Shown: positions 3,663 to 45,127 of the stretch, piece after piece | Layout of the letters: each line of letters begins with the position of its first letter | Position numbering within the stretch: the stretch's first letter is position 1 | NCBI GenBank assembly: GCA_029564595.1 | Contig: JAKQPS010000098.1 | Span: 1-63,694 of the forward strand | Direction: 5' to 3' | Source of the DNA: a bacterium | GTDB lineage: Bacteria; UBP15; UBA6099 | Length of the DNA stretch: 63,694 nucleotides | Program-made: the position numbers and the translations under genes | The notes under the pieces: generated by a model | What the model saw: the letters and a program-made list of their open reading frames with translations, nothing else | The model's database searches: none | Told to the model about the DNA's origin: nothing

Positions 3663-3964
3663 GTCCTGATTTCTTTCCCGGCCTTGCGCCTGACGGACTC
3701 CACCTTGCCTTCGAGCCGCTTCTTGGCCCCCTTGCGGTCGTCGATGGTTATCGATGTCAGAACCCTCGGCGACCCTTTGCGGACCAGCGCGTGGCATTTG
3801 CCGATTAGCTCTATAACAGCCTTCCAGTCCCCCTCGACGATAGTCCCCATCGCCGTCAGCTTGTAGTCCAGCCCGCTCGCGTCCACCATCCTTATCACCT
3901 TCGCAACAGTCGGGCTTATGCTCTCTCCCTCCCCAATCGGAACAATCGTAAACGTCGCCAGCAT
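3659..3964 (-). CDS. MTH1187 family thiamine-binding protein (UPF0045)
   Basis: A 101-residue protein with the MTH1187/YkoF-type ferredoxin-like fold: an N-terminal strand ATFTIVPIGEGESISP, the L-T-A-M-G-T motif near residue 40, and the W-K-A-V helix. Members form tetramers and bind thiamine or related small molecules; the physiological role is not well defined. A clear AGGAGG precedes the ATG. It is translationally coupled to the endonuclease IV-like gene downstream through a GTGA overlap. Confidence 0.85.
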   Translation of the reverse strand: MLATFTIVPIGEGESISPTVAKVIRMVDASGLDYKLTAMGTIVEGDWKAVIELIGKCHALVRKGSPRVLTSITIDDRKGAKKRLEGKVESVRRKAGKEIRT

Positions 3965-4184
3965 AAAAACCTCCTATAAGAAAACATCAAGCATAAGTAT
4001 AAAAACCTTGCCGCTAATACAAAACTGCTCGCTCAAAAAATGCCATCCTCCCCGCGCCTTAATCAAAGCTGCGTCGGAAAGCCGCGCCGGGGATTTCAAG
4101 CTATAATGTGAACAGCGACAACGCGAGATTCGGGCGCAGGCGCGCGTCGGCGAAAAACGCGGAGCGTAAGGAGCGGTTATCATT

Positions 4185-20095: not shown

Positions 20096-23000
20096 ATGCG
20101 CGCACCGCATCGCATGGCATTTGCTGTAGCGACAGCTATAGCGGTGGCGTATGCGTGCGCGACGGCGCGAGCGGCGACGACATGGACGTTCGAGAAGGGC
20201 TGGAGGCTGGTGTCGTTGCCGGTGGCGATGGAAGGCCGCAATCTGTGCGATTATCTTCCGGGGTTGTCAGTCTCGAAGATAAACGGCGGCGGATACGCGA
20301 ACTGTATCGACGGGGCGTCGGCGACGGTCGAAACGGGCAAGGGATACTGGGTTTATTTTCCTGAAAAAACACAAGTTATATTCCCGTCCGCGATAAGGAC
20401 AGGCGGGACCTATAAGGCTGCTCTGAAAAGAGGATGGAACATAATAGGGTCTCCGGTAGGCGTGACGATGCCGTGGAACGGCGAGATTCTGGTCAATGGC
20501 GTCGCGGTCACTATGTCGCCGAAGACCGGGCGTGTGATTTACAGATACGACCCGAACCAGAAGAAATACGCGCCTGCGGAATCTATGGAGCCATGGACAG
20601 GCTACGCGATTTACGCGGTGGAGGATTGCGAGTTGCAGTTTCCGGTTTCGCAGGGCGAGGGGATAACGCAGGGCGGAACGGAGGAAGTGGAGACGCTGCC
20701 GGGCGGGGAGAGGGTGGTAGCGAGGCAGTTGATCGTCGCAAAAGCGACCGGAACGACGGAGGCTTTTTTTGAGGTAGAGGTTGCGCGGTACGGCATAGCT
20801 ATTCTGGGTAAGAACTCATCTGCGGGATTGTATCAGATACAGCTTCCGGTGGACGTAGATATCGAGACAGCGGCTGAGACGCTCAAGAAGATGGGGGTGG
20901 CCGAGGCCGCCGCCCCGCATTATGTGTTTGGAATCTCGGAACATATTCCATTTGACCCGCCGTACGCGCCGGGGGTCGACCCCGCGCAGAGTTGGGCGTT
21001 CAAGAAAATCCGCGCCCCCGGTGTCTGGACTGCGTATCATTCAGGCTCGGCCCCGACTCTGGCGTTCGTTGACACCGGGGTTGACAGCGCGCATATGGAT
21101 TTTACAGGAAAGCTGGTTCCGGGAGCGGATTTCATCGGGGATGGGAACGGGACGCAGGACGGACATGGGCACGGCACGCATGCGGCGGGGCTTGCGGCGG
21201 CGGCGGGGGACAATGGTTACGGTGTCGCAGGGGTATGCTGGGGCTGCCGCGTGATGCCGGTGAAGGTGTGCGACTCGAAGGGAGACTGTCCTTTCTTCGC
21301 GGTTATGAACGGAATAACGTTCGCGGCGAATGCGGGCGCGGACGTGATAAATCTGAGCGTGCAGGGAAAAGTCGAGCAAGGCTCGGACGCATGGAAAATA
21401 TTCCAGACGGTGATAGACCATGCCGTCGGAACAGGCGCGACGGTGGTCGCGGCGGCTGGCAACAGCGCTTCGGACGCCTTCTCTTTCGTTCCGGCGGGTC
21501 TTGAAGGAGTAATAACAGTCGGAGCGACGGACGAGGGCGACGCGTTGACCGCGTTCAGCAACTTCGGCGCGGCGTTGGACATCGCCGCGCCCGGCGTCCG
21601 CGTTTATTCGCTCGAACCGGGCGGCTGGATGGAATACCGGGACGGAACGTCGTCGGCGGCCGCGTTGGTTTCCGGAGCGGCGGGCTTGATAATCGGCGCT
21701 CGCCCGACTGCTTCAAATGATGAAGTGGCGGCGTTCCTGAGGGAAACCGCCGACCCGGCGGCGGGGGCCTACCCGCCGCTCGGCAGGCTCAATCTGGAAA
21801 GGCTGATGGCTGCGGCGTCTCCGCCGAACGCGGCTCCGCAGATTCACGCGATATACGCGATTCCGGACTCGGTTTCGCCGGGCGCGACGATAGATGTCTC
21901 GGCGCAGGTTTACGACTCTGACGGGGACGCGCTGACGTATAAGTGGGAATCGAATTTCGGCGCGGCGGCGCCGGGGTCTGGAGCGACGGCGAAGTGGACG
22001 GCCCCGGCAACGAGAGGCGCGTACGCCGTCAGGCTGACGGTCTCCGACGGCCGGGGCGGGAACGCGTCCGCGAAGGCATACGTCGGCGTCGGACTCGACG
22101 GTCTGTTCATGATAAGGATGGGCGGGATACCTGCGTTCATGCGGGTGGGCGAAACGTTTGAGTTCAAAGCGTACGGGCAGTTCGCGGACGGCGAAATATA
22201 TCCAATGAACATTGAATGGGAACTGGCGAGTCCGCACGGAGTGATAAGCGCGGACGGGAAGTTCACGGCGCTGCTTGAAGGCGAGGCGATGCTGACGGCG
22301 CGGGCAGGGGAAATGCGCCGGGACGCCGTCGTGACGATACTGGCTCCCGGAGAAACTCCGCCGCCGCTGACGGTGTCAGGTTTCGCCGCGCCTGCGGGCG
22401 GCGACGTCGTGTTGACCGGCGACTATGGCTATGACCGTCTCGTTGTCGGCGACATCACAGGCGACGGGGTGAACGACTTGATAGTCGGAGGGGTGGACGG
22501 TCTGTTGCCTTTCAAGGCGTACCGGGGCGCTGGGGACGGCTCTTTCTTTCTCATCTCCACATTCGGCCCTAACGGTTGCAACACTAATCACATGGCGCTA
22601 GCCGACATCGACGGGGACGGCGACCTCGACCTCGGCGCCGCTTGTCTTTCTGGCGGCGGTTTCAAGATATATAAAAACAACGGCGCCGGCTCTTTCTCAA
22701 TCAGTCAGCAACTCTGCTCTCCCGGATGCAACGGCACGTCGATTGTCTTCGCGGATATGTCCCGGAACATGAGGATGGACGTTTTCGGGAGCGATACCAT
22801 CACCACCAACCGCAATAGAATCTTTTACTATGACGAAGCGCAGCACGCTCTCGGAAATCCCGGAATGTTCCAGACCTCCGGGGTTGAAGCGGGGTCTCAG
22901 GCGAACACGCAGAAAGTGGATGTGGCGTACTTCAACAGGACTTCCGGCGGCTCGGAAGATCATTATCTGGATTTCGCCGAAGCTAATTACAACACTCAGA

Positions 23001-26000
23001 CAAGGATATATCTTTACAATACGGCGACGGGCGCGTACGACATGTCGTCCCAATTCGGCGCCGCCAGTTCCAACACTCTCATTGTGGCGGAAGTGACGGG
23101 CGGCGGAGCGCCGTGCGACGGCGACTGGGATGTTATCGTTGCCGAAAACAGCGCAATCGAAGGCATAAATATTTTCAGGGGAAACGGCTCCGGAGGAGTA
23201 TCATCGAACACGCCCCTCGCCACCACGCCGGCCACGGAGTTTTATTCGCTGACTCTGGCTGAAACCGAAAACAACATAATGCCCGAAATAGTCGCCGGAA
23301 CACTGGACAACAAAAAGGCGCGGCTGTTCACCAGCACCGGAGATTCCGAGGCTTGCGCGCTATCCTATAAACTGGAGACGATGGATCTGCCGGAATACTC
23401 GATGGATGTGTCGTTCGGGGATTTCACTGGAAACAGGAATCCAGACTTGGCGATAGCGGGCGGCAACTACATAACAAACGAAGTATGGATAAACGACACG
23501 GCGGGAAGCAATACGGCTCCCGGAGCGCCCGCGTCCGCCGGTTGCTCGGTGATTGAGAGCGCGGGGGCCGGGGTTCTTCGCTTGAATTGGGAAAAGGGAA
23601 CGGACGCGGAAGCGGGGCTTAATAAGAACCTGCTGACATACGATTTGAGGTTGACAGAGCACAATGCCGCCGCGCCGTCTGCGGCGCAGCCGGACAGGTG
23701 GTCGGGAGCGGCGGCGTTCCGGATGGGCAACTATCTGCGCTCTCGCTCGCTCGGCGGCGGGAACACTTATCAAATGGATTTCTCGCTTGGCGACGATACC
23801 GCTTTGAATGTGCCGTACGGCAGTTACTATTTCAACGTGAGGACGGTGGACGCTGCGAACGCCCGTTCGGCGTGGTTCGCGCCCGGCCTGCCTGTCAAAT
23901 GCGACAACTTTGTTCCCGAAATTACATCAGCCGCTGTTTTTAACCCGCCGTTCATCCTCAATAACGGATTCAGCTTGACCGCCTTGTCGGTCACGGTGAA
24001 AGACTATAACGGGATTGCGGACATAACGGCCGCAAGCGTGAACCTGACAAATATTAATGGAACCGCCGCGTTGGCGCTGACTCATGAGAGCGGAGGCGCT
24101 GAGGCGATGAAGTTCGCGGCAAGCGCGATAAACTCGACGTCGGGGCTTGCGCCGGGAACCAAGACGGCGACTGTGAGTGTACAGGACGCCGCAGGGGCTG
24201 TCCCCATCGGTTATCCCGCCTCCGTTTCGCTGGATGTGGAACAGTGGCCGGAGATGACGGTTTGCGGCGATGACTGGCCGATGTTCAACTGCGACGAGCG
24301 ACGCCGCTCGGTTTCTGGCGTCGATTCGCTGTGGTTCGTGCCGTTCGAGCAGAAATGGAGCAAATCGCTTGCGCAGACGACGACGGCGGCTCCGGTAGTG
24401 AAAGACAGTGTCGTAATGATCGGACTGTCCGACGGGACGCTGGCGGCGTACGCGACGTCGGACGGATCGCCCGAATGGTCCGCCGCGGCGGGAGCCGGGC
24501 CGGTCGCGGCCGCCGGAGCTGTAGCTTCTTCAGGCGGCGTGGACGCGCTGTACACTGTGTCCGGCTCAAAGGTCTACGCGCATCGAGTCTCCGACGGTTC
24601 GGCGTTCTGGGCCGCGCCTAACGAGTCCGCCACAGCTTCGATAACCCTGCCGCCCATAGCCATGCTCAGCCCGGTTGCGGCGACTTATGATTTACTGTTT
24701 TTCGTGGATGTGAACGGAATCGTCCATGCCGTCAATAAGTCCGACGGCGCGCTGCGGTGGAAAGTCAAAGGGACGGGGAGCGCCGCTGTAGCCGCTCCTA
24801 TCGCAGTGGGAAACGGCGTTCTGTTCGTCGGGGACACGGCCGGCAACATTTTCGCGTTCGACACTATGACAGGGACGCAGGCGGCGTCGGCCACATTGCC
24901 GGGCGGCCCGGAAATAAAATCAATAATCGTCGCGTCGAACCGCCTGATAATATTGACGCCGCAGACGATATACGCGCTCTCAATGAGCGGCGCTCCAGTT
25001 TGGAACAGACCGAACCCGAACGGGGAAAACTTCACCGGGTCCGCCGCGTGGGTGGAATCGGAATCGACTCTTTACGCTGCGGACGACGGCGGATGGGTGT
25101 ACAAGATAAACGCCGCCGGAACGATAGCTGAAAGCGGCCAGTTGCCCGGCGGGCCTGCAGTGGACGCGCCTCTCGTTTATGTGTCGGGCGTGGTTTACGC
25201 GGGAGCGCAGGACGGAAAAATATACGGGATAAACACGGACGGGATGGGAGTCACGTCGAGCGTGTCCGCATGCCCCGGCTCAGGGGTCACGGGCGGGTTG
25301 GCGGTAGCGGACGAGACGCTGTTTGCGGTGTGCGGAGGCGCGGCTTCTAAGACTCTGTTCGCATACAAAAAGGCGGATGGACTTGGCCCGCAGGCGGACA
25401 CCTGCCCCCAAGTCTCCGACTCTACGGACGGAGCGGGGCTGGGCACCCTGCGGGACTGCATAACGAAGGCGAACGCCACCCCCGTCACACACGGGAACAT
25501 AACGTTTGCGGGGGCGCTCTCCGGCGCGACCATCGCCATAGGCCCGAACCCGCTTCCTGCTATTACCGCCGACGGCGTTTCCATAGACGGAGCCGCTCTA
25601 AGCATAACGATTGACGGCTCCGGCTGCACCGCGACGAACTGCCACGGGTTTAAGATAACCGAGGCAAACGCGACGATTAAAAATCTTACGATAGTCAATT
25701 TTTCAAAGGATACTTGCGACGATCTGCAAGGCGCATCGGCGCCTTTCGTCACCGGATGCGCGGCGATCGCGGTGGACGGCAATGCGTCCGGCCAAGTCAC
25801 GATTACAGGCAACACAATCGGAATTAAGACTAACGGCGATATGGCGGGGAACTATCACGGGATTCATGTGGGAGGATGTCCCGGCGGGGTGTGCGCGGCG
25901 ATGAATGTGGACATAGGCGGAAACGCGGCGCAATACAGAAACGTCATCTCAGGCAGCCTAGGAAAGGGCATTGCGCTGAACGAGAACGCGGAAGGCGTGT

Positions 26001-29000
26001 CGATAAAGGGCAATTATATCGGGACTGCCAGAGACGGACGCAGTTGTTCGAGCGGGGGCAATTCCACAAGCAACCTCGGCGGCGGCATATACATGATTAG
26101 GGCGATGGACAACTCGATAGGGGTTGAGCCGGGGGGCGCGGCGGGCGAGTCCAACGTCATTTCCTGCAACGGCAATCAAGCCACGCCCTCGGCAAATACC
26201 GGCGGAATATATGTCGACAGATCGGTTTCCGTAGGAACTCACATCGCAGGCAATTGCATAGGGCTTTGCCTGAGCGCGGCAAACCGTTGCGAGCAGGACT
26301 GCGGGGGCAACCACGGTCCCGGAATTGTCTTTTCGGACGTTTATGCCTCCGCCGGAAACAAGGCTGAATTAGGCTACGACGGAGACGATAAATACACCAA
26401 TGTGATTTCCGGCAACAAGCTTCAGGGCATCTACATGTACAACGCCCAGCATGTCAATATCAGGAACGCGCGCATAGGGCTGCCTCAAAAGAACACCGCC
26501 GTCGAGGACTACACGGACAGAGGAAACACGAACGACGGGATAATGATGACCGGGTCGTCCAGATATAACACGATAGTAAACAATGCCGCGTATCCCGTCA
26601 GGATTGCATACAACGATGCGAGCGGAATACTCATTGAGGACGTCGGAGCGAGCAACAACAAATTTACAGGCGTGTTGATTTATGAAAACGACAATCCGGA
26701 TAACGAGCCTGTCGAACTGAGCAACGGGGCCAACCAGAACGTCCTGAGGCCGGTAATCGGCTCGATACTTACCAGCGGGGCGAACTTCAACATAACAGTT
26801 AACCCTGTGATCGTTTGCACCGGTTGCGAGGTCGCTCTATATCAGGCAACCGATTCGCTTCTGGGCATTGCCGAGGACGGAACGGGGTACGGCGAAGGGC
26901 CTTATCTGCTGGGGACGGCGACGACGGACGGCACGGGAGCCGCGACATTCACAAACGTCGCGGTGGCTCAAGGCGAATTTGTGACCGCCATCTTTACGGA
27001 TGGCAACAGCAACTCGTCAATGTTCGCGCTGAATAAGGAAGTCCAGCCCGAAGACTGCGTGAAGGTGACCAGCACGGCGGATTCCGGATTGGGCACTCTG
27101 CGCCACTGCATCAATTATGCCAACAGCAATCCCGGATTCGCCATAATGTTCGACGCCGCGCTGTCTGGCCAGACCATTACGCCGCTGACTCAGCTTCCGA
27201 CGGTGACCGCCAACGGAACGAGCATAGATGGAGACATCAACAGCGACGGAACGCCCGACATCACGATATCGGGCGCTTCCTGCGGGGTCTGCGACGGCCT
27301 TGTATGGAAGGCGGGCAACGGGACTATTAAGGGGTTGAAAGTGATAAGGTTCAGTGGGGCCACTAAAGCTGGCATAAGGCTGGAAACCGCCGCCGCGATG
27401 AACAATACAATCACAGGCAATTATATAGGCAACACCGGAGCCGCCGCGTTCGCCAACAGATACGGCGTCTACATCCTGACGAACGCCAACGGCAACATAA
27501 TCGGGCCGAACAACGTCATATCCGGCAACACCGAACACGGCATTTATATTTATGCGACCAACAGCCACACGATAAAAGGCAACGCCATCGGCTCCAACGC
27601 CGCGATGACGAGCGGAATTCCAAACAACAGAGGCGTCTACATTTTCAGTGGCTCAAGCAACACCATCGGCGGCTCCGGCGCGAACGAGGCGAATCTTATC
27701 GCTTATAACACGAACAACGGCATTAACACGCAACTCGGCACGGAAGCTGATTACAACAAGTATTCCCGCAACCGCGTTTTCAGCAACGGCGGACCCGAGA
27801 CCGCGGGTATCCTTAATGCCGATGGCGTGAATAAAAACATCAAGCCTCCGATCATAAACTCCATCGTCGCAAACGGCGCCAATTACGACATCGGAATGAC
27901 CATTCAGTCGCCGATAACAAGCGGCTGCACTCTTGCGTTGCCTTGCGTGGTGGAAGTGTTCAGCGTGGATAACCCGCCCGGAGTGTGGCCTGACACGACA
28001 GCCGGAGAGGCGTACATGTTTGCCGCCGCGCAGAACGTGACGACGTGCGCGGCGTTCCCCTGCAACATTTCGTTCTCCATCCCGCAGGCGTCTGTCTGGG
28101 GCGCGGCGACACGATTGACCGCAACCGTGACTTCCGCGAACAACAACACTTCGATGTTCGCGAATAATAGGACATTGAACCAGCCTCCATCCGTGACGGA
28201 TTGCGCGTTTGATCCGATTAGCGGCGCTCCCGGTTTCACCCCAGTGAGACTTTCCTGCACGGTGACGGACCCGAACGGGCACGGCGACATTGACAGCGTG
28301 ACGGCTCCTGACGCGGACGGGGTGTTCGGGGGAGCGGATTTGATTCTCGTAAGAGACGGGCTCACAGACACATACAAAATCGAAGGACTTACAGTGGCGG
28401 GAGCGCTGCCGGATCCGTATAGCTTCACAGTTACAGCGGAAGACGACACAGGGGCGACAGACGACGGCGCCGCGACGTTTACAGTGACGAACGCCGCGCC
28501 GACTGTATCCGGGTGCGCGTTCACACCACCGAGCGGCGCTCCCGGATTCACCCCAGTGAGACTTTCCTGCACGGTGACGGACCCGAATGGTCACGACGAC
28601 ATCGTAAGCGTGAAGGCCCCCGATGCGGACGGAGTGTTCGGAGGAGCGGAATTGGTTCTCGTGAGAGACGGACTCACAGATACATACAAAACAGGCGATT
28701 TAACGGTGGCGGGAGCGCTGCCGGACCCGTATAGCTTCACAGTTGCAGCGGAAGACGACACAGGGGCGACAGACGACGGCGCCGCGACGTTTACAGTGGA
28801 GAATGTCGCGCCGACTGTATCCGGGTGCGCGTTCACACCACCGAGCGGCGCTCCCGGATTCACTCCGGTGAAACTCTCCTGCACGGTGACGGACCCGAAC
28901 GGGCATGCGGACATCAAATCGGTGACGGCTCCCGACACGGACGGAGTGTTCGGGGGAGCGGAATTGGTTCTCGTGAGAGACGGATCCACAGACATATACG

Positions 29001-32000
29001 AAATCGAAGGACTTACAGTGGCGGGAGCGCTGCCGGACCCGTATAGCTTCACAGTTACAGCGGAAGACGACACAGGGGCGACAGACGACGGCGCCGCGAC
29101 GTTTACAGTGACGAACGTCGCGCCTTCGGTCTCTGACTGCGCGTTTGATCCCGCAAGCGGAATTCCCGGATTCACTCCGGTGAAACTCTCCTGCACGGTG
29201 ACGGACCCGAACGGGCACGACGACATCGTAAGCGTGAAGGCCCCCGATGCGGACGGAGTGTTCGGGGGAGCGGATTTGGTTCTCGCGAGAGACGGACTCA
29301 CAGACACATACAAAATCGAAGGACTTACAGTGGCGGGAGCGCTGCCGGACCCGTATAGCTTCACAGTTACAGCGGAAGACGACACAGGGGCGACAGACGA
29401 CGGCGCCGCGACGTTCACAGTGACGAACGTCGCGCCTTCGGTCTCAGACTGCGCGTTTGATCCCGCAAGCGGAACTCCCGGTTTCAGTCCGGTGAGACTT
29501 TCCTGCACGGTGACGGACCCGAACGGGCATGGCGACATTGACAGCGTAACGGCTCCCGACGCGGATGGTGTGTTCGGGGGAGCGGATTTGGTTCTCGTGA
29601 GAGACGGACTCACAGACACATACAAAACAGGCGATTTGACGGTGGCGGGAGCGCTGCCGGACCCGTATAGTTTCACAGTTACAGCGGAAGACGACACAGG
29701 GGCGACAGACGACGGCTCCGCGACGTTTACAGTGACGAATGCGGATCCGTCAGTGACGGATTGCGGGTTTGTTCCTGCAAGCGGGGCGCCGGGCGCGAGC
29801 GTCGTTCTCTCCTGCACAGTGACGGATCCGAACGGGCACGGCGACATCGTAAGCGTGAAGGCTCCCGACACGGACGGAGTGTTCGGTGGAGCGGAATTGG
29901 TTCTCGTGAGAGACGGACTCACAGACACATACAAAACAGGCGATTTAACGGTGGCGGGAGCGTTGCCGGACCCGTATAGTTTCACAGTTACAGCGGAAGA
30001 CGACACAGGCGCGACAGACGACGGCTCCGCGACATTTACAGTGACAGGCTCGCCTCCTTCCGTGACGGATTGCGCGTTTGATCCGATTAGCGGAGTTCCC
30101 GGTTTAACTCCGGTTAGGCTGTCCTGCACAGTGACAGACCCGAACGGGCATGACGACATTGACAGCGTGACGGCTCCCGACACGGACAGCGTGTTCGGGG
30201 GAGCGGATTTGGTTCTCGTAAGAGACGGACTCACAGATACATACAAAACAGGCGATTTAATGGTGGCGGGAGCGCTGCCGGATCCGTATAGCTTCACAGT
30301 CACGGCGGAAGACGACACAGGGGCGACAGACGACGGCGCCGCGACGTTTACAGTGACGAACGTCGCGCCTTCGGTCTCTGACTGCGCGTTTGATCCTGCA
30401 ATCGGCGCTCCCGGATTCACCCCGGTGAGACTTTCCTGCACGGTGACGGACCCGAATGGTCACGACGACATCGTAAGCGTGAAGACTCCCGACACGGACG
30501 GAGTGTTCGGGGGAGCGGAATTGGTTCTCGTGAGAGACGGACTCACAGACACATACAAAACAGGCGATTTAACGGTGGCGGGAGCGCTGCCGGACCCGTA
30601 CAGCTTCACAGTTACAGCGGAAGATGACACAGGCGCGACAGACGACGGCGCCGCGACGTTTACAGTGACGAACGTCGCGCCATCGGTCTCCGACTGCGCG
30701 TTTGATCCCGCAAGCGGCGCTCCCGGATTCACTCCGGTGAAACTCTCCTGCACGGTGACGGACCCGAACGGGCATGGCGACATTGACAGCGTAACGGCTC
30801 CCGACGCGGATGGTGTGTTCGGGGGAGCGGATTTGGTTCTCGTGAGAGACGGACTCACAGACACATACAAAACAGGCGATTTAATGGTGGCGGGAGCGCT
30901 GCCGGACCCGTATAGTTTCACAGTTACAGCGGAAGACGACACAGGCGCGACAGACGACGGCGCCGCGACGTTTACAGTGACGAATATCGCGCCAGCGATA
31001 TCCGCTTGCGCGTTCACTCCACCGAGCGGCGCTCCCGGATTCACCCCGGTGAGACTTTCCTGCACGGTGACGGACCCGAATGGTCACGCGGACATCAAAT
31101 CGGTTGCGGCGCCAGACCCGGACGGCGTGTTCGGCGCGGCTCCTATCGCATTGACGAGAGTGGGCGCGACGGATGTTTATCAGTCCGCCGCGCTGACTGT
31201 TCAGGCTGTCGCTCAACTGCCTTATGTTTTCACCGCGACGGCGACCGATTTCAGCGACGCGGCGTCCAGCCAGTCCAACATGCAGTTCACGGTAACGGGT
31301 CTTGTTTTCCCCGGCGCGCCTGTTATTACAAACGCGCAGGGCGCGAACGGCGAGATAACCGTCACGCTTGTCGCCCCGACGATGAACAACGACGGGCTTC
31401 CTCTGACTAATCTTGTGCAGCATTCGTTGTTCGTGTCGCCGACGCCCGGAGGCCCGTACGCGGCGGCGGGGTCGGTTGTTTCCGCAGTCCCCGGAGCTAC
31501 ATACCAGTTCGTGCACAACGGCCCGTTCACATGGTATGACAGTTATTGCTATGTGGCGAGAGCGATCGACTCCGACGGCGGAGAAAGCGTGTATTCCAAC
31601 GAGATGTGCGCGGTGGCTCAGCCACCGGCGTACAGCCCCGGAAAGACATGCGCCCAGTTGCCCGGCGATGTCTACATCGCCCCGGACACCCCCGGCTACG
31701 TGAACCGGCCCACAGGAGTGTCAATCGGCGCGCCGTCCCCGAGCGGCTTCAACTATGTGTACATCGCTGACAATCACAACAACCGCGTGTCCGTATTTGA
31801 CGAGGACTGCAACTTCTACGAGACTTGGGGAGAATATGGAAACGAACCCGGAAACTTCATCATACCCAATGACGTTCTCTACCACGACGGGTTCGTATAT
31901 GTGAGCGACGCGATATCGAGGATACAGAAATTTGACGCGGCCACCGGGGACTACGTGGCGCACGGCACGGTAACGGGGCCATGGATGATGGCCATGTTGC

Positions 32001-32488
32001 CCTCCGGCTCGATGCTTGTGGCGACGCATTATAAAAAACTCGCAGTGTTCGACCCCGTCGCGCTTGTCGAGAACACGGCGGCGGCTATGACCGTCCCTGA
32101 TTCTAACGGAGTGGTTTACAACCCCTCGAACGGGCTGGTATATATCTCGGACAAGGAGAATAACGTTGTGATGGCCTACACGACAGGCGGAACGCCGCAG
32201 CCTGCGAACAATCTAGGTTACGGCCCCGGCAGCGGGTTCGGGCAGCTTGACACGCCCGCCGGACTGGCCGTTGACAGTTCAGGCAACATATATGTGGCAG
32301 ACAGCGGAAACGACAGGATTCAGGTGTTCAGTCCGTCCAACCAACTGATAAACACTATCGGCTCGAAAGGCGCGGGGCCGGGGCAGTTGAGGTCTCCATA
32401 CGGAATAGCGATATCATCCACAACCGGGCTGGTCTGGGTTGCCGACCACCTGAACCAGCGGTTCACAGGATACGCCCCTCCGCCCTGA
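20096..32488 (+). CDS. Giant secreted subtilisin / beta-helix / tandem-repeat surface protein
   Basis: 4,130 residues. A signal peptide (about 1-26, A-R-A cleavage) leads into a two-unit domain with W-R-L-V-S-L-P-V (28-205) and a fervidolysin-like prodomain (about 215-300). The subtilisin domain has Asp326 (DTGVD), His359 (HGTHAAG), Asn456 (AGNS) and Ser519 (GTSSAA). Then follow a PKD-like domain (577-665), a BIG2-like domain (to 745), FG-GAP repeats (760-1140, D-x-D-G-D-x-D-L loops), two sandwich domains, a PQQ-like propeller (1391-1757), two right-handed beta-helix regions each opened by a CSLREA-like G-T-L-R-x-C-I motif (1772-2315, 2321-2696), ten 104-residue sandwich repeats (2697-3736), an Fn3-like domain, and a C-terminal NHL propeller (3852-4130). 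No LPXTG or membrane anchor is seen. Probably cell-surface or extracellular; function unknown. Confidence 0.9.
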   Translation: MRAPHRMAFAVATAIAVAYACATARAATTWTFEKGWRLVSLPVAMEGRNLCDYLPGLSVSKINGGGYANCIDGASATVETGKGYWVYFPEKTQVIFPSAIRTGGTYKAALKRGWNIIGSPVGVTMPWNGEILVNGVAVTMSPKTGRVIYRYDPNQKKYAPAESMEPWTGYAIYAVEDCELQFPVSQGEGITQGGTEEVETLPGGERVVARQLIVAKATGTTEAFFEVEVARYGIAILGKNSSAGLYQIQLPVDVDIETAAETLKKMGVAEAAAPHYVFGISEHIPFDPPYAPGVDPAQSWAFKKIRAPGVWTAYHSGSAPTLAFVDTGVDSAHMDFTGKLVPGADFIGDGNGTQDGHGHGTHAAGLAAAAGDNGYGVAGVCWGCRVMPVKVCDSKGDCPFFAVMNGITFAANAGADVINLSVQGKVEQGSDAWKIFQTVIDHAVGTGATVVAAAGNSASDAFSFVPAGLEGVITVGATDEGDALTAFSNFGAALDIAAPGVRVYSLEPGGWMEYRDGTSSAAALVSGAAGLIIGARPTASNDEVAAFLRETADPAAGAYPPLGRLNLERLMAAASPPNAAPQIHAIYAIPDSVSPGATIDVSAQVYDSDGDALTYKWESNFGAAAPGSGATAKWTAPATRGAYAVRLTVSDGRGGNASAKAYVGVGLDGLFMIRMGGIPAFMRVGETFEFKAYGQFADGEIYPMNIEWELASPHGVISADGKFTALLEGEAMLTARAGEMRRDAVVTILAPGETPPPLTVSGFAAPAGGDVVLTGDYGYDRLVVGDITGDGVNDLIVGGVDGLLPFKAYRGAGDGSFFLISTFGPNGCNTNHMALADIDGDGDLDLGAACLSGGGFKIYKNNGAGSFSISQQLCSPGCNGTSIVFADMSRNMRMDVFGSDTITTNRNRIFYYDEAQHALGNPGMFQTSGVEAGSQANTQKVDVAYFNRTSGGSEDHYLDFAEANYNTQTRIYLYNTATGAYDMSSQFGAASSNTLIVAEVTGGGAPCDGDWDVIVAENSAIEGINIFRGNGSGGVSSNTPLATTPATEFYSLTLAETENNIMPEIVAGTLDNKKARLFTSTGDSEACALSYKLETMDLPEYSMDVSFGDFTGNRNPDLAIAGGNYITNEVWINDTAGSNTAPGAPASAGCSVIESAGAGVLRLNWEKGTDAEAGLNKNLLTYDLRLTEHNAAAPSAAQPDRWSGAAAFRMGNYLRSRSLGGGNTYQMDFSLGDDTALNVPYGSYYFNVRTVDAANARSAWFAPGLPVKCDNFVPEITSAAVFNPPFILNNGFSLTALSVTVKDYNGIADITAASVNLTNINGTAALALTHESGGAEAMKFAASAINSTSGLAPGTKTATVSVQDAAGAVPIGYPASVSLDVEQWPEMTVCGDDWPMFNCDERRRSVSGVDSLWFVPFEQKWSKSLAQTTTAAPVVKDSVVMIGLSDGTLAAYATSDGSPEWSAAAGAGPVAAAGAVASSGGVDALYTVSGSKVYAHRVSDGSAFWAAPNESATASITLPPIAMLSPVAATYDLLFFVDVNGIVHAVNKSDGALRWKVKGTGSAAVAAPIAVGNGVLFVGDTAGNIFAFDTMTGTQAASATLPGGPEIKSIIVASNRLIILTPQTIYALSMSGAPVWNRPNPNGENFTGSAAWVESESTLYAADDGGWVYKINAAGTIAESGQLPGGPAVDAPLVYVSGVVYAGAQDGKIYGINTDGMGVTSSVSACPGSGVTGGLAVADETLFAVCGGAASKTLFAYKKADGLGPQADTCPQVSDSTDGAGLGTLRDCITKANATPVTHGNITFAGALSGATIAIGPNPLPAITADGVSIDGAALSITIDGSGCTATNCHGFKITEANATIKNLTIVNFSKDTCDDLQGASAPFVTGCAAIAVDGNASGQVTITGNTIGIKTNGDMAGNYHGIHVGGCPGGVCAAMNVDIGGNAAQYRNVISGSLGKGIALNENAEGVSIKGNYIGTARDGRSCSSGGNSTSNLGGGIYMIRAMDNSIGVEPGGAAGESNVISCNGNQATPSANTGGIYVDRSVSVGTHIAGNCIGLCLSAANRCEQDCGGNHGPGIVFSDVYASAGNKAELGYDGDDKYTNVISGNKLQGIYMYNAQHVNIRNARIGLPQKNTAVEDYTDRGNTNDGIMMTGSSRYNTIVNNAAYPVRIAYNDASGILIEDVGASNNKFTGVLIYENDNPDNEPVELSNGANQNVLRPVIGSILTSGANFNITVNPVIVCTGCEVALYQATDSLLGIAEDGTGYGEGPYLLGTATTDGTGAATFTNVAVAQGEFVTAIFTDGNSNSSMFALNKEVQPEDCVKVTSTADSGLGTLRHCINYANSNPGFAIMFDAALSGQTITPLTQLPTVTANGTSIDGDINSDGTPDITISGASCGVCDGLVWKAGNGTIKGLKVIRFSGATKAGIRLETAAAMNNTITGNYIGNTGAAAFANRYGVYILTNANGNIIGPNNVISGNTEHGIYIYATNSHTIKGNAIGSNAAMTSGIPNNRGVYIFSGSSNTIGGSGANEANLIAYNTNNGINTQLGTEADYNKYSRNRVFSNGGPETAGILNADGVNKNIKPPIINSIVANGANYDIGMTIQSPITSGCTLALPCVVEVFSVDNPPGVWPDTTAGEAYMFAAAQNVTTCAAFPCNISFSIPQASVWGAATRLTATVTSANNNTSMFANNRTLNQPPSVTDCAFDPISGAPGFTPVRLSCTVTDPNGHGDIDSVTAPDADGVFGGADLILVRDGLTDTYKIEGLTVAGALPDPYSFTVTAEDDTGATDDGAATFTVTNAAPTVSGCAFTPPSGAPGFTPVRLSCTVTDPNGHDDIVSVKAPDADGVFGGAELVLVRDGLTDTYKTGDLTVAGALPDPYSFTVAAEDDTGATDDGAATFTVENVAPTVSGCAFTPPSGAPGFTPVKLSCTVTDPNGHADIKSVTAPDTDGVFGGAELVLVRDGSTDIYEIEGLTVAGALPDPYSFTVTAEDDTGATDDGAATFTVTNVAPSVSDCAFDPASGIPGFTPVKLSCTVTDPNGHDDIVSVKAPDADGVFGGADLVLARDGLTDTYKIEGLTVAGALPDPYSFTVTAEDDTGATDDGAATFTVTNVAPSVSDCAFDPASGTPGFSPVRLSCTVTDPNGHGDIDSVTAPDADGVFGGADLVLVRDGLTDTYKTGDLTVAGALPDPYSFTVTAEDDTGATDDGSATFTVTNADPSVTDCGFVPASGAPGASVVLSCTVTDPNGHGDIVSVKAPDTDGVFGGAELVLVRDGLTDTYKTGDLTVAGALPDPYSFTVTAEDDTGATDDGSATFTVTGSPPSVTDCAFDPISGVPGLTPVRLSCTVTDPNGHDDIDSVTAPDTDSVFGGADLVLVRDGLTDTYKTGDLMVAGALPDPYSFTVTAEDDTGATDDGAATFTVTNVAPSVSDCAFDPAIGAPGFTPVRLSCTVTDPNGHDDIVSVKTPDTDGVFGGAELVLVRDGLTDTYKTGDLTVAGALPDPYSFTVTAEDDTGATDDGAATFTVTNVAPSVSDCAFDPASGAPGFTPVKLSCTVTDPNGHGDIDSVTAPDADGVFGGADLVLVRDGLTDTYKTGDLMVAGALPDPYSFTVTAEDDTGATDDGAATFTVTNIAPAISACAFTPPSGAPGFTPVRLSCTVTDPNGHADIKSVAAPDPDGVFGAAPIALTRVGATDVYQSAALTVQAVAQLPYVFTATATDFSDAASSQSNMQFTVTGLVFPGAPVITNAQGANGEITVTLVAPTMNNDGLPLTNLVQHSLFVSPTPGGPYAAAGSVVSAVPGATYQFVHNGPFTWYDSYCYVARAIDSDGGESVYSNEMCAVAQPPAYSPGKTCAQLPGDVYIAPDTPGYVNRPTGVSIGAPSPSGFNYVYIADNHNNRVSVFDEDCNFYETWGEYGNEPGNFIIPNDVLYHDGFVYVSDAISRIQKFDAATGDYVAHGTVTGPWMMAMLPSGSMLVATHYKKLAVFDPVALVENTAAAMTVPDSNGVVYNPSNGLVYISDKENNVVMAYTTGGTPQPANNLGYGPGSGFGQLDTPAGLAVDSSGNIYVADSGNDRIQVFSPSNQLINTIGSKGAGPGQLRSPYGIAISSTTGLVWVADHLNQRFTGYAPPP
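28187..31303 (+). repeat. Ten tandem 312-bp repeats within the giant gene
   Basis: Each unit encodes 104 residues with C-A-F-x-P, L-S-C-T-V-T-D-P-N-G-H, V-F-G-G-A and A-E-D-D-T-G-A-T-D-D-G. Units 1-9 are nearly identical at DNA level; unit 10 is diverged after its midpoint. Two residue variants alternate (DIDSVT with GGADL, DIVSVK with GGAEL), most regularly in units 5-9. Confidence 0.95.
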
Positions 32489-32617: not shown

Positions 32618-32827
32618 ATGAAGTATAGGGTGATAATCGAACAGGATGAGGACGGCGTTTTTGTGGCAGAATGCCCGTCTTTTCCGGGATGCGTGTCGCA
32701 GGGCGCAACGCGGGCGGAAGCCGAGGAAAATATTAAGGACGCCATCAAGGGCTATATAGAAAGTCTGATGAAACACAACGAGGCCGCCCCGCCGTCCATA
32801 TATGAGTCATACGTCGAGGTCGGGTGA
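32618..32827 (+). CDS. hicB: HicB-like antitoxin
   Basis: 69 residues with the partial RNase H-like fold of HicB: Y-R-V-I-I-E-Q-D-E-D-G-V-F-V-A-E-C-P, then F-P-G-C-V-S-Q-G-A-T-x-A-E-A. This short form lacks a C-terminal DNA-binding helix-turn-helix, so it probably neutralises the toxin without being a full repressor. GAAGGA precedes the ATG; the stop abuts the toxin start (TGAATG). Antitoxin-first order is common in HicB-HicA variants of this size. Confidence 0.9.
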   Translation: MKYRVIIEQDEDGVFVAECPSFPGCVSQGATRAEAEENIKDAIKGYIESLMKHNEAAPPSIYESYVEVG

Positions 32828-33055
32828 ATGACCCGGCTGCCGGTAGTGTCAGATCAGGAAACTATAGCGGCTTTCAGAAAATGCGGATATGAAATAGACC
32901 ACCAGACGGGCGGCCACATAATACTGAGGAACTCGAAACAGCCTCATCGCCGATTGACAATTCCAAATCATAAGGATATCGCAAAAGGAACACTGCGTTC
33001 TTTAATACGACAAGCCGGTTTGACTGTGGAAGAATTTGCGCGGCTACTGAGTTGA
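32828..33055 (+). CDS. hicA: HicA-like mRNA interferase toxin
   Basis: 75 residues, dsRNA-binding-like fold. The catalytic histidine is in G-G-H-I-I-L-R (about residue 30), preceded by the F-R-K-C-G-Y-E-I-D-H-Q-T motif and followed by L-T-I-P-N-H-K-D-I-A-K-G-T-L-R. HicA cleaves mRNA in a ribosome-independent way. It starts one base after the antitoxin stop. A convergent gene begins only 24 bp downstream on the other strand. Confidence 0.92.
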   Translation: MTRLPVVSDQETIAAFRKCGYEIDHQTGGHIILRNSKQPHRRLTIPNHKDIAKGTLRSLIRQAGLTVEEFARLLS

Positions 33056-33078
33056 ACCCGGATACCGACGGCGGGCGG

Positions 33079-42868: not shown

Positions 42869-43912
42869 TTATTTGTGATTCCATGAGTCTTTAAGGCAGG
42901 GGTGTTGCTCCCGCATGAACGCCGCAAGGTCTACCGAACCTCTGCCCGGCGATTTTGCCAGCGATATGTATGACGGCTGTTCAATGTTTACGAAAACTCC
43001 CGTCACAGCCGCCGACGAAGAGGCGAGCGACTCGTAGTTGTAGCCGCCTTCGAGAACAATGCCGACCGGGCATCGGGCCGCTTCCCGCGCGTACTCGAAT
43101 ATGGCCGCAAACCCTCCGTCGTCCAGAAGAGCGCCGCCCAGAGGGTCGCTGCGGTGTCCGTCGAATCCGGCGGATATAAGTAGCAGTTCCGGCTCGAAGC
43201 GTCTGATCGCCGGCCCGACGCACTCCTCCATAAGATACATATAGTCGTCATTGCCGCTGCCCGGTCTCATGGGCAGGTTCAGCGTGTATCCGAATCCGTC
43301 GTCGATTCCCATCTCCGTCCGCCCGCCTGTCCCCGGATAGTGGGGGCTTTGGTGGAACGAGCAGAAAAAAACGGACGGGTCTTTGTCAAAAGAATGCTGT
43401 GTGCCGTTTCCGTGGTGAATGTCCCAGTCGAGAATGAACACGCGCCCGACGTTGTGGTTTTCCTGAGCGTAACGCGCGCCGATGGCAATGTTGTTGAACA
43501 GGCAGAACCCGTGAGATTCGTCCGCCTCGGCGTGGTGGCCGGGAGGCCGAACGAGGGCGAAGAAGCCGTCCACTTCCTTTGCGAACAGCCTGTCGATTCC
43601 TTCCATCACTCCGCCCGCCGCCAACAGCGCCACTTCATAACTCTCCGGGCAGATAGCAGTGTCCGGATTCAGGTAGCTTATGCCCCGCGTGTATTCGCAC
43701 TCTTTTTTGATATATTCGACATAAGAGCGGTCGTGGATCATCGCGATGTCCTGAGGAGAAGCCGCGCGGGGGGCCAGCCATTGTAGCCTGTCCGTCCAAG
43801 AGGCGGCAAGCAGTTCTTCTCGTATAGCCGCCACTCGACCCGGATTCTCCACATGAGCGCCTGTCTCGTGCTCCAGATACCGGTCAGAGTAAACTATTCC
43901 AATTGTGCTCAT
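42869..43912 (-). CDS. Histone deacetylase-family protein (class II-like amidohydrolase)
   Basis: 347 residues. Zinc-amidohydrolase motifs: R-P-P-G-H-H-A (His126, His127), D-W-D-I-H-H-G-N-G-T (Asp164 and His166 as zinc ligands), S-A-G-F-D-G-H-x-x-D-P-L-G-G near 251, and L-E-G-G-Y-N. Bacterial members act on acetylated polyamines, lysine or acetoin-related substrates; there are no acuABC genes here, so the substrate is unknown. The frame runs far upstream antisense to moaA; the start M-S-T-I-G-I-V-Y-S fits the family. First of a three-gene set with rnz and the GT4 gene. Confidence 0.9.
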   Translation of the reverse strand: MSTIGIVYSDRYLEHETGAHVENPGRVAAIREELLAASWTDRLQWLAPRAASPQDIAMIHDRSYVEYIKKECEYTRGISYLNPDTAICPESYEVALLAAGGVMEGIDRLFAKEVDGFFALVRPPGHHAEADESHGFCLFNNIAIGARYAQENHNVGRVFILDWDIHHGNGTQHSFDKDPSVFFCSFHQSPHYPGTGGRTEMGIDDGFGYTLNLPMRPGSGNDDYMYLMEECVGPAIRRFEPELLLISAGFDGHRSDPLGGALLDDGGFAAIFEYAREAARCPVGIVLEGGYNYESLASSSAAVTGVFVNIEQPSYISLAKSPGRGSVDLAAFMREQHPCLKDSWNHK

Positions 43913-44134
43913 CGCGTGTCGCGTCTCCATGTGCCCGGCGGGGATTTCCACGGTGGTGGGATTGTCCGATACCGGCCATAACTTTTCTATTATATAATCG
44001 GCGGGCGGGAATTTAAAGACCGCGATTGTTTGCGCGCGCGCTACGAGTCGTCGGCGCAAACTCGGTTGAAACCGGGCGCGCTCAAGGATTCGTGAGCGAT
44101 TGAAAAAAACTTCATCTGAACTAATAATAAACAA

Positions 44135-45127
44135 ATGAGCGATGGCAAGGAAGCGCGCGGAGGCGCTCTGCGCGACAATTACGACAGGAACATCACCTAT
44201 CTGCGAGTCTCGGTGACCGACCGTTGCAACATGCGGTGCGTTTATTGCATCCCCGAAGGCGCCGAGTTTATTCCGCACGAAGAGATTCTCACGTACGACG
44301 AGATAGAGAGGATTGTGAAGATTGGCGCGGGCGCGGGCATTAGGAAAGTCCGCCTCACCGGCGGCGAACCGTTGGCCAGAAAGAATGTGGAGCGTCTTGT
44401 GGCCCAGCTCTCGCGGATCGATTCTCTGGAAGACCTCTCCCTGACCACAAACGGGCTGCTGCTGGCGGAGAAAGCCGAGGCGCTCGCCGCGGCGGGGCTG
44501 AAGCGCGTCAACGTAAGCCTCGACACTCTCGACCCGGCTAAGTTCAGCGAGATTTGCAGGCGGGGAGACATCGGCGCGGTCATCGGGGGGATACGATCGG
44601 CGGGCGCGGCGGGGCTGCGTCCCGTTAAGGTTAACGTGGTGGTGATGCGCGGTCGCAACGAACACGAGGCCGCCGACTTCATCAGGTTTGCTCTCGACGA
44701 GGGCGTGGTCGTCAGGTTCATCGAGTACATGCCTTTCAACCGCGACGAGGAATGGCGCGCCAGATACGTTTCGCGCGACGAAACCATCGCCTCTCTCGGC
44801 TCCCTGATAGACGCTTCCGACGGGGGAAGAACCGACCCTAGCGCGCCGGCGAGATATTTCAAAATCAAAGGTTCCGACGCCTCGGTGGGTTTTATCAGCC
44901 CGATATCGCACGGGTTCTGCAACATGTGCAACAGGATGAGGCTCACCCCCGGAGGCCAGTTGCTTGCCTGCCTGTTGTCTCCTTCCGGAGTGGACCTGAA
45001 GTCGATAATTCGCGCCGGGGGCTCAGACGACGAGATACGCGACGCGTTCAGGCTGGCGGCGGAATCAAAGGGGCCGAGGGGCAATTTTCCGGACGCCTCG
45101 CGCCCAATGCACACCGTCGGCGGATGA
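44135..45127 (+). CDS. moaA: GTP 3',8-cyclase MoaA
   Basis: 330 residues. It starts molybdopterin synthesis by cyclising GTP. The radical SAM cluster is C-N-M-R-C-V-Y-C (Cys31, 35, 38); L-T-G-G-E-P-L is the SAM motif; the GTP-cluster cysteines are C-N-M-C-N-R-M-R-L-T-P-G-G-x-L-L-A-C near 264-281; the conserved C-terminal Gly-Gly tail is present. No strong ribosome site is visible before the ATG. Followed 43 bp later by a MOSC gene, so the pair belongs to molybdenum or tungsten cofactor use. Confidence 0.96.
   Translation: MSDGKEARGGALRDNYDRNITYLRVSVTDRCNMRCVYCIPEGAEFIPHEEILTYDEIERIVKIGAGAGIRKVRLTGGEPLARKNVERLVAQLSRIDSLEDLSLTTNGLLLAEKAEALAAAGLKRVNVSLDTLDPAKFSEICRRGDIGAVIGGIRSAGAAGLRPVKVNVVVMRGRNEHEAADFIRFALDEGVVVRFIEYMPFNRDEEWRARYVSRDETIASLGSLIDASDGGRTDPSAPARYFKIKGSDASVGFISPISHGFCNMCNRMRLTPGGQLLACLLSPSGVDLKSIIRAGGSDDEIRDAFRLAAESKGPRGNFPDASRPMHTVGG

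Follow-up and report, generated by a model that had tools for sequence, protein, structure and literature searches.

The long open reading frame at positions 20096-32488 (+) of the window (the whole stretch of 63,694 nucleotides analysed here, the entire 63.7-kb contig of a 4.4-Mb MAG in 203 contigs) is, judged from its sequence, a real and intact gene, and its product is a secreted modular subtilisin predicted to be active. The preferred reading, with a probability of roughly 0.6, is that of an exported, self-processing subtilisin on a long modular binding stalk, where export, processing and binding are all predicted. What looked like an odd frame of 12.4 kb proves to represent a protein family conserved in a small phylum that has no cultured members, and its processing scheme can be tested. 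Named relatives assign the genome to candidate phylum UBP15: those in the same genus are UBP15_UBA6099 and ADurb.Bin236, further relatives being MAGs of the order; genomes are designated below by number (G000 for the present one), and a literature search on UBP15 returned nothing useful.

The frame comprises 4,130 codons from an ATG start to a TGA, internal stops are absent, and a GGAG lies a few bases 5′ of the ATG. All its modules are encoded on the + strand; residue numbers in the home-made profile run one higher than those given here, since that frame was taken from stop to stop. The signal peptide (20096-20173, residues 1-26, MRAPHRM...ATARA), read from the sequence, has its hydrophobic peak at residues 6-27, with no lipobox within the first 45 residues. 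It is followed by the W domain (20177-20659, residues 28-188), a tandem of GW-x-(L/I)-(V/I)-x-x-P / G-x-GYW half-repeats supported by HMM matches and an AF2 model, by a predicted subtilisin/fervidolysin-type prodomain (20711-20932, residues ~206-279) and by the Peptidase_S8 domain (21044-21757, residues 317-554). The latter scores 156.3 bits against a Pfam cut-off of 21.8, which places the protein in S8, an assignment sustained by PDB matches to thermitase and subtilisins and by conservation. The catalytic triad D326 (VDTGVD), H359 (GHGTH) and S519 (GTSSAAA), together with the oxyanion residue N456, is invariant across five aligned homologues, and the triad numbering in the first-pass annotation was exact. 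More specific assignments fail among the S8 equivalogs of NCBIfam, including the mycosin model TIGR03921 (153 of 278.75 bits). Four extra conserved Cys (381, 384, 392 and 398) lie inside the protease domain, out of 68 Cys in the whole protein; these four, or the propellers, could have other roles.

Behind the protease come a K319L-like PKD domain (21878-22087, residues 595-664; Pfam 44 bits), a weak Big_2-like domain (22142-22333; Pfam E 0.05, under the cut-off, in a segment kept in homologues) and an FG-GAP propeller (22391-23545, residues ~766-1150), for which FG-GAP_3 gives 72 bits on the segment in five stretches and which is conserved in G002, G004 and G006. An Ig/fn3-like linker leads to a BamB/PQQ-like propeller (24332-25465, residues ~1413-1790), present in G002 and not in G004, which passes only the broad PQQ_2 model (78 bits) and falls far below the BamB equivalogs (58 of 285.2 bits for TIGR03300, 49 of 423 for NF008351). 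Two beta-helices follow, the first at 25421-27028 (residues ~1776-2311) and the second at 27065-28165 (residues ~2324-2690), both delineated with the home-made profile. Neither stretch has a Pfam match above cut-off in the giant subtilase (NosD 18 bits, in the second), and the first is homologous to the G006 protein, which scores 91 bits for Beta_helix and 64 bits for NosD and aligns over residues 1765-3152 at 32% identity. Then come an Ig-like array (28187-31306, residues 2698-~3735) of 10 units, ~104 aa long and with two Cys apiece at a fixed spacing of 17-18 residues, an fn3-like linker (31313-31615; named by eye, no Pfam match, conserved in G002 and G004) and, up to the stop, a C-terminal NHL propeller (31616-32485, residues ~3841-4130; Pfam 48 bits), recovered in G002, G004, G005 (by profile) and G006 (by Pfam). 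The description of a secreted subtilisin with FG-GAP, PQQ-like and NHL modules is thus borne out by the signal peptide and the Pfam matches, and the reported tandem-sandwich module corresponds to the Cys-paired Ig-like units. A beta-helix fold is probable, from the G006 homologue, for the two stretches that had been called CSLREA-like; the ‘CSLREA’ label itself was given by eye only, and the NCBIfam CSLREA model has no match in the protein. The listed modules stand, and the list had missed the predicted inhibitory prodomain (~206-279) and the PKD/Big_2 modules after the protease.

The prodomain is recognized mainly through its homologues and its predicted fold. The giant subtilase itself does not match PF22148, for which the G005 homologue scores 25.9 bits (cut-off 21) and that of G004 20.7. 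A structure predicted for residues 26-600 has a pLDDT of 80.9, with values of ~85-91 in the prodomain, which is modelled as beta-alpha-beta-beta-alpha-beta, with a poorly ordered linker (~283-293) between it and the protease. In the PDB the model is matched best by unautoprocessed pro-subtilisin E (3WHI; E 2.8e-25, TM 0.86-0.87 on target). Given this arrangement of prodomain and linker and the match to pro-subtilisin E, self-cleavage behind the prodomain is most likely the activation step.

Relatives extend the evidence over the full length of the gene. The same-order search proposed in the first-pass annotation found an orthologue of identical module order in G002 (UBP15_UBA6099), in one frame of 4,268 residues with flanks matching on both sides; identity is 87% across the N-terminal 770 residues and 89% in the protease. 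In G001 the giant gene is covered by two contigs; the only relative in G003, also a member of the genus, is 33% identical and interrupted by a contig end. Between G000 and G002, dN/dS is 0.10-0.25 in each single-copy segment, and such purifying selection in all of them indicates that the entire length is in use. More distant homologues keep only the ends of this order: that of G004 (3,233 residues; 42% identity in the N-terminal and 35% in the C-terminal part) is without the BamB-like propeller, that of G005 (2,941 residues) is without FG-GAP and beta-helices, and that of G006 (at least 4,512 residues, the 5′ end missing) has more beta-helix. All three retain the start, with protease and PKD, as well as the NHL end. 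Within the order, shared ends (W pair, prodomain, S8 and PKD on one side and C-terminal NHL on the other) therefore flank differing middles, so that lineages can exchange the central part.

An identity of 80-86% in the gene, against 97% downstream, had suggested accelerated evolution of the whole gene. This was rejected: dS in the flanks runs from 0.06 on the downstream side up to 0.67 on the upstream side, and identity at other loci is 87-95%, so that the gene simply belongs to the more diverged portion of a genus with mosaic divergence. Over 15880-36075 of the window, dS against G002 is about 0.06-0.28 downstream and 0.41-0.67 upstream, where the sequence is closer to G001 (0.16-0.24); this mosaic divergence at the locus suggests recombination between lineages. 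A viral origin was also considered and set aside, as an NHL query against viral contigs gave just two weak propeller matches.

The Ig array is the exception to the otherwise ordinary divergence of the gene. At the nucleotide level it consists of 10 units of ~312 nt (28202-31306) that are 62-93% identical; the nine inner units of G000 are mutually 79-93% identical and the units of G002 72-97%. Between the two species the units share only about 50-60% identity, as against 82-90% for the array flanks. In a tree of units, the inner ones cluster by species, in clades with a support of 99-100% (the bootstrap not being fully settled), and the sole orthologous pair is formed by the last units (r10 of G000 and r11 of G002). 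Given species-specific inner clades and a single orthologous unit at the end, the array was re-expanded or homogenized separately after the split, apparently from seed units that differed between the two species. The numbers of units, 10 in G000 and 11 in G002, are subject to possible miscounting in MAG assembly. An array rebuilt from different seeds in close species offers a tractable case of length and sequence turnover in a surface protein. An antisense ORF (28591-30441, −, 616 aa) runs across the array and is most likely the shadow of a repeated codon pattern and no gene.

The host organism is a diderm, with Omp85 in all seven UBP15 genomes and 2-4 secretins per genome. The earlier remark that no anchoring signal is visible held up: the seven genomes contain no sortase and no T9SS tail (Por_Secre_tail / CHU_C) above cut-off, and the giant subtilase, which finishes in its NHL propeller and not in a sortase (LPXTG) signal, matches neither these tails nor the NCBIfam PEP-CTERM tails, its last 60 residues having no hydrophobic segment. 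Anchoring by sortase, T9SS or PEP-CTERM accordingly found no support. Among the secretin loci, one adjoins PilM/N/O (T4P pilMNO cluster) and another lies within a Tad-like cluster. In the own genome a gspE-like gene scores 629.4 bits against a cut-off of 630.25 and a gspD-like gene is under its cut-off; among the relatives, gspE is above cut-off in G004-G006 and gspD in G006, and by these scores a T2SS is likely present in relatives. Secretin-dependent export of the folded protein is the best guess. The own genome also has candidate genes for VKOR and a DsbA-like (thioredoxin-like) oxidase. Around the gene, the upstream neighbours are lipoyl-synthase-like, a pyridine-nucleotide oxidoreductase and GCV_T, and the downstream ones HicBA, a CxxCxxCC protein, NYN, RecR, YbaB and DnaX; these are housekeeping genes in the opposite orientation, which leaves the giant gene as a stand-alone unit with no dedicated partner alongside. 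The HicB-HicA toxin-antitoxin-like pair (32618-33055, +; Pfam 42 and 63 bits) immediately after it has no counterpart at the G002 locus, where the conserved flank begins at 33061. Elsewhere in the window, an ORF at 42872-44911 (−, 680 aa) has a histone-deacetylase-type domain (301 bits) in its C-terminal half, preceded by ~350 residues without a Pfam match.

The N-terminal W pair (‘WRLVSLPV’), a double domain that the first-pass annotation could not name, indeed has no Pfam or NCBIfam family, as is also the case for the nine or ten relatives checked, and a literature search found no paper containing its motif strings; yet it turns out to be widespread in exported proteins. Its AF2 model, built on an alignment of 45 sequences, is all-beta and of high confidence (pLDDT 90.1, pTM 0.85). 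Compared with the PDB, the model has no match at E ≤ 0.001, only poor cupin/cNMP-like ones (TM about 0.2); by sequence, the only PDB hint is RemZ, not significant at E 0.056. The W domain HMM matches in 54 loci and, at E ≤ 1e-6, in 23 of 98 sampled genomes, with a maximum of 24 matches per genome; in a pattern-selected sample, the taxa with matches comprise Bacteroidota, Ignavibacteria, Armatimonadetes, Cloacimonetes, Poribacteria, Thermoplasmata, Altiarchaeales and others. Among 58 distinct W proteins whose frames close at a true stop, some of them orthologues within UBP15, 34 stop at most 13 residues past the domain and 17 stop 223-261 residues past it; eight of these 17 were inspected, and at least five carry a T9SS sorting tail at or above cut-off. 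The present genome has 10 W matches, and its exported proteins C138, C88, C78, C80 and C41 (L111-L114 and L008) end in a W domain. In the UBP15 giant subtilases the W domain comes first, whereas elsewhere it is usually C-terminal on exported proteins or placed before a T9SS tail; outside UBP15, one archaeal S8 protein (L073) likewise carries a W half before its S8 domain, and in the other proteins that combine S8 and W the latter lies behind. Tentatively, and with the odds still against it, W may be an undescribed family, perhaps of an unsolved fold, that provides exported bacterial and archaeal proteins with a general module for surface binding or sorting and was moved ahead of the inhibitory prodomain in the UBP15 giant subtilases. 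If so, self-activation of the protease would also release or re-place the W domain. As a widespread exported-protein domain absent from present family libraries, W is the part most worth following.

These elements can be arranged into a scheme for the self-processing subtilisin. The signal peptide seen in the sequence would direct Sec export, and the protein would fold in an oxidizing compartment, where its Cys pairs may form disulfides with the help of the VKOR/DsbA-like gene products. The prodomain would fold onto the active site and be cut at the linker (~283-293), freeing prodomain and W domain together. The mature protein would then cross the outer membrane or be displayed on it, perhaps via a genome-encoded secretin. 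There, the PKD/Ig modules, beta-helices and Ig array would act as a spacer, and the FG-GAP, BamB-like and NHL propellers would bind substrate or matrix, keeping the protease near the proteins digested for nutrients.

Alternatively, the product could be a surface adhesin or fibre, its protease being chiefly a maturase that cuts its own N-terminus or stalk, with external proteolysis secondary. About 85% of the length consists of binding-type and stalk modules, and the array turns over in length and sequence between species while the protease holds its 89% identity; the triad and prodomain nevertheless resemble those of ordinary digestive subtilisins, which leaves this reading at perhaps one chance in five. 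Somewhat less probable still is a protease that stays in the envelope, periplasmic or associated with the outer membrane, and docks to envelope partners through its BamB-like and NHL propellers. Consistent with it, neither an outer-membrane export signal nor an anchor was found, and one propeller scores as BamB family; however, that score belongs to the broad PQQ_2 model, far from the curated BamB equivalogs, and in other proteins, ones leaving the cell, the W domain stands in front of T9SS export tails. The suspicion of a one-off frame or of an assembly chimera of several fused genes, which a MAG in 203 contigs and a repeat array where assemblers can err might invite, is very improbable and was rejected for the module order, since the complete order recurs within a single frame of G002, an independent MAG, and across two contigs of G001, the genes on either flank correspond, codon structure and dN/dS (0.10-0.25) are uniform, and the same ends recur in family and order.

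Compared with known systems, the exported subtilisin described here is of S8 subtilisin/thermitase type (PF00082, with an I9/fervidolysin-type prodomain), sharing the triad, the oxyanion Asn and the order and predicted fold of the prodomain; its closest S8 relatives in the PDB are thermitase by sequence (E 1e-46) and unprocessed pro-subtilisin E by fold. To this type it adds the W domain ahead of the prodomain, Cys 381/384/392/398 and a stalk of ~3,500 residues behind. With ScyF (NF035926), a secreted NHL-propeller protein, it shares NHL repeats, but it reaches only 103 of 350 bits, far under the equivalog cut-off, and is without a PEP-CTERM tail. The exported proteins with a C-terminal W (own genome, Thermoplasmata, Altiarchaeales, Bacteroidota and others) contain the same paired module of ~160 residues; there W is the last module or is followed by a T9SS tail, whereas in the giant subtilase it comes first. 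Giant subtilases also occur in unrelated lineages (G048:C4, 3,191 aa, and G035:C26, 4,101 aa), with S8 near the N-terminus, PKD/Ig modules and propellers, the former with the same prodomain model and the latter also with a beta-helix; they differ in their Kelch and PD40 propellers, in module order and in that no W was found before S8, and homology was detected only within S8. Since subtilases of 3,200-4,100 residues exist in unrelated lineages, the general type of giant modular subtilase is already known, and the combination earlier termed unusual is so for its exact module order and not for its general kind. What is new are the UBP15-specific ends, the N-terminal W domain and an array that two species have each rebuilt independently.
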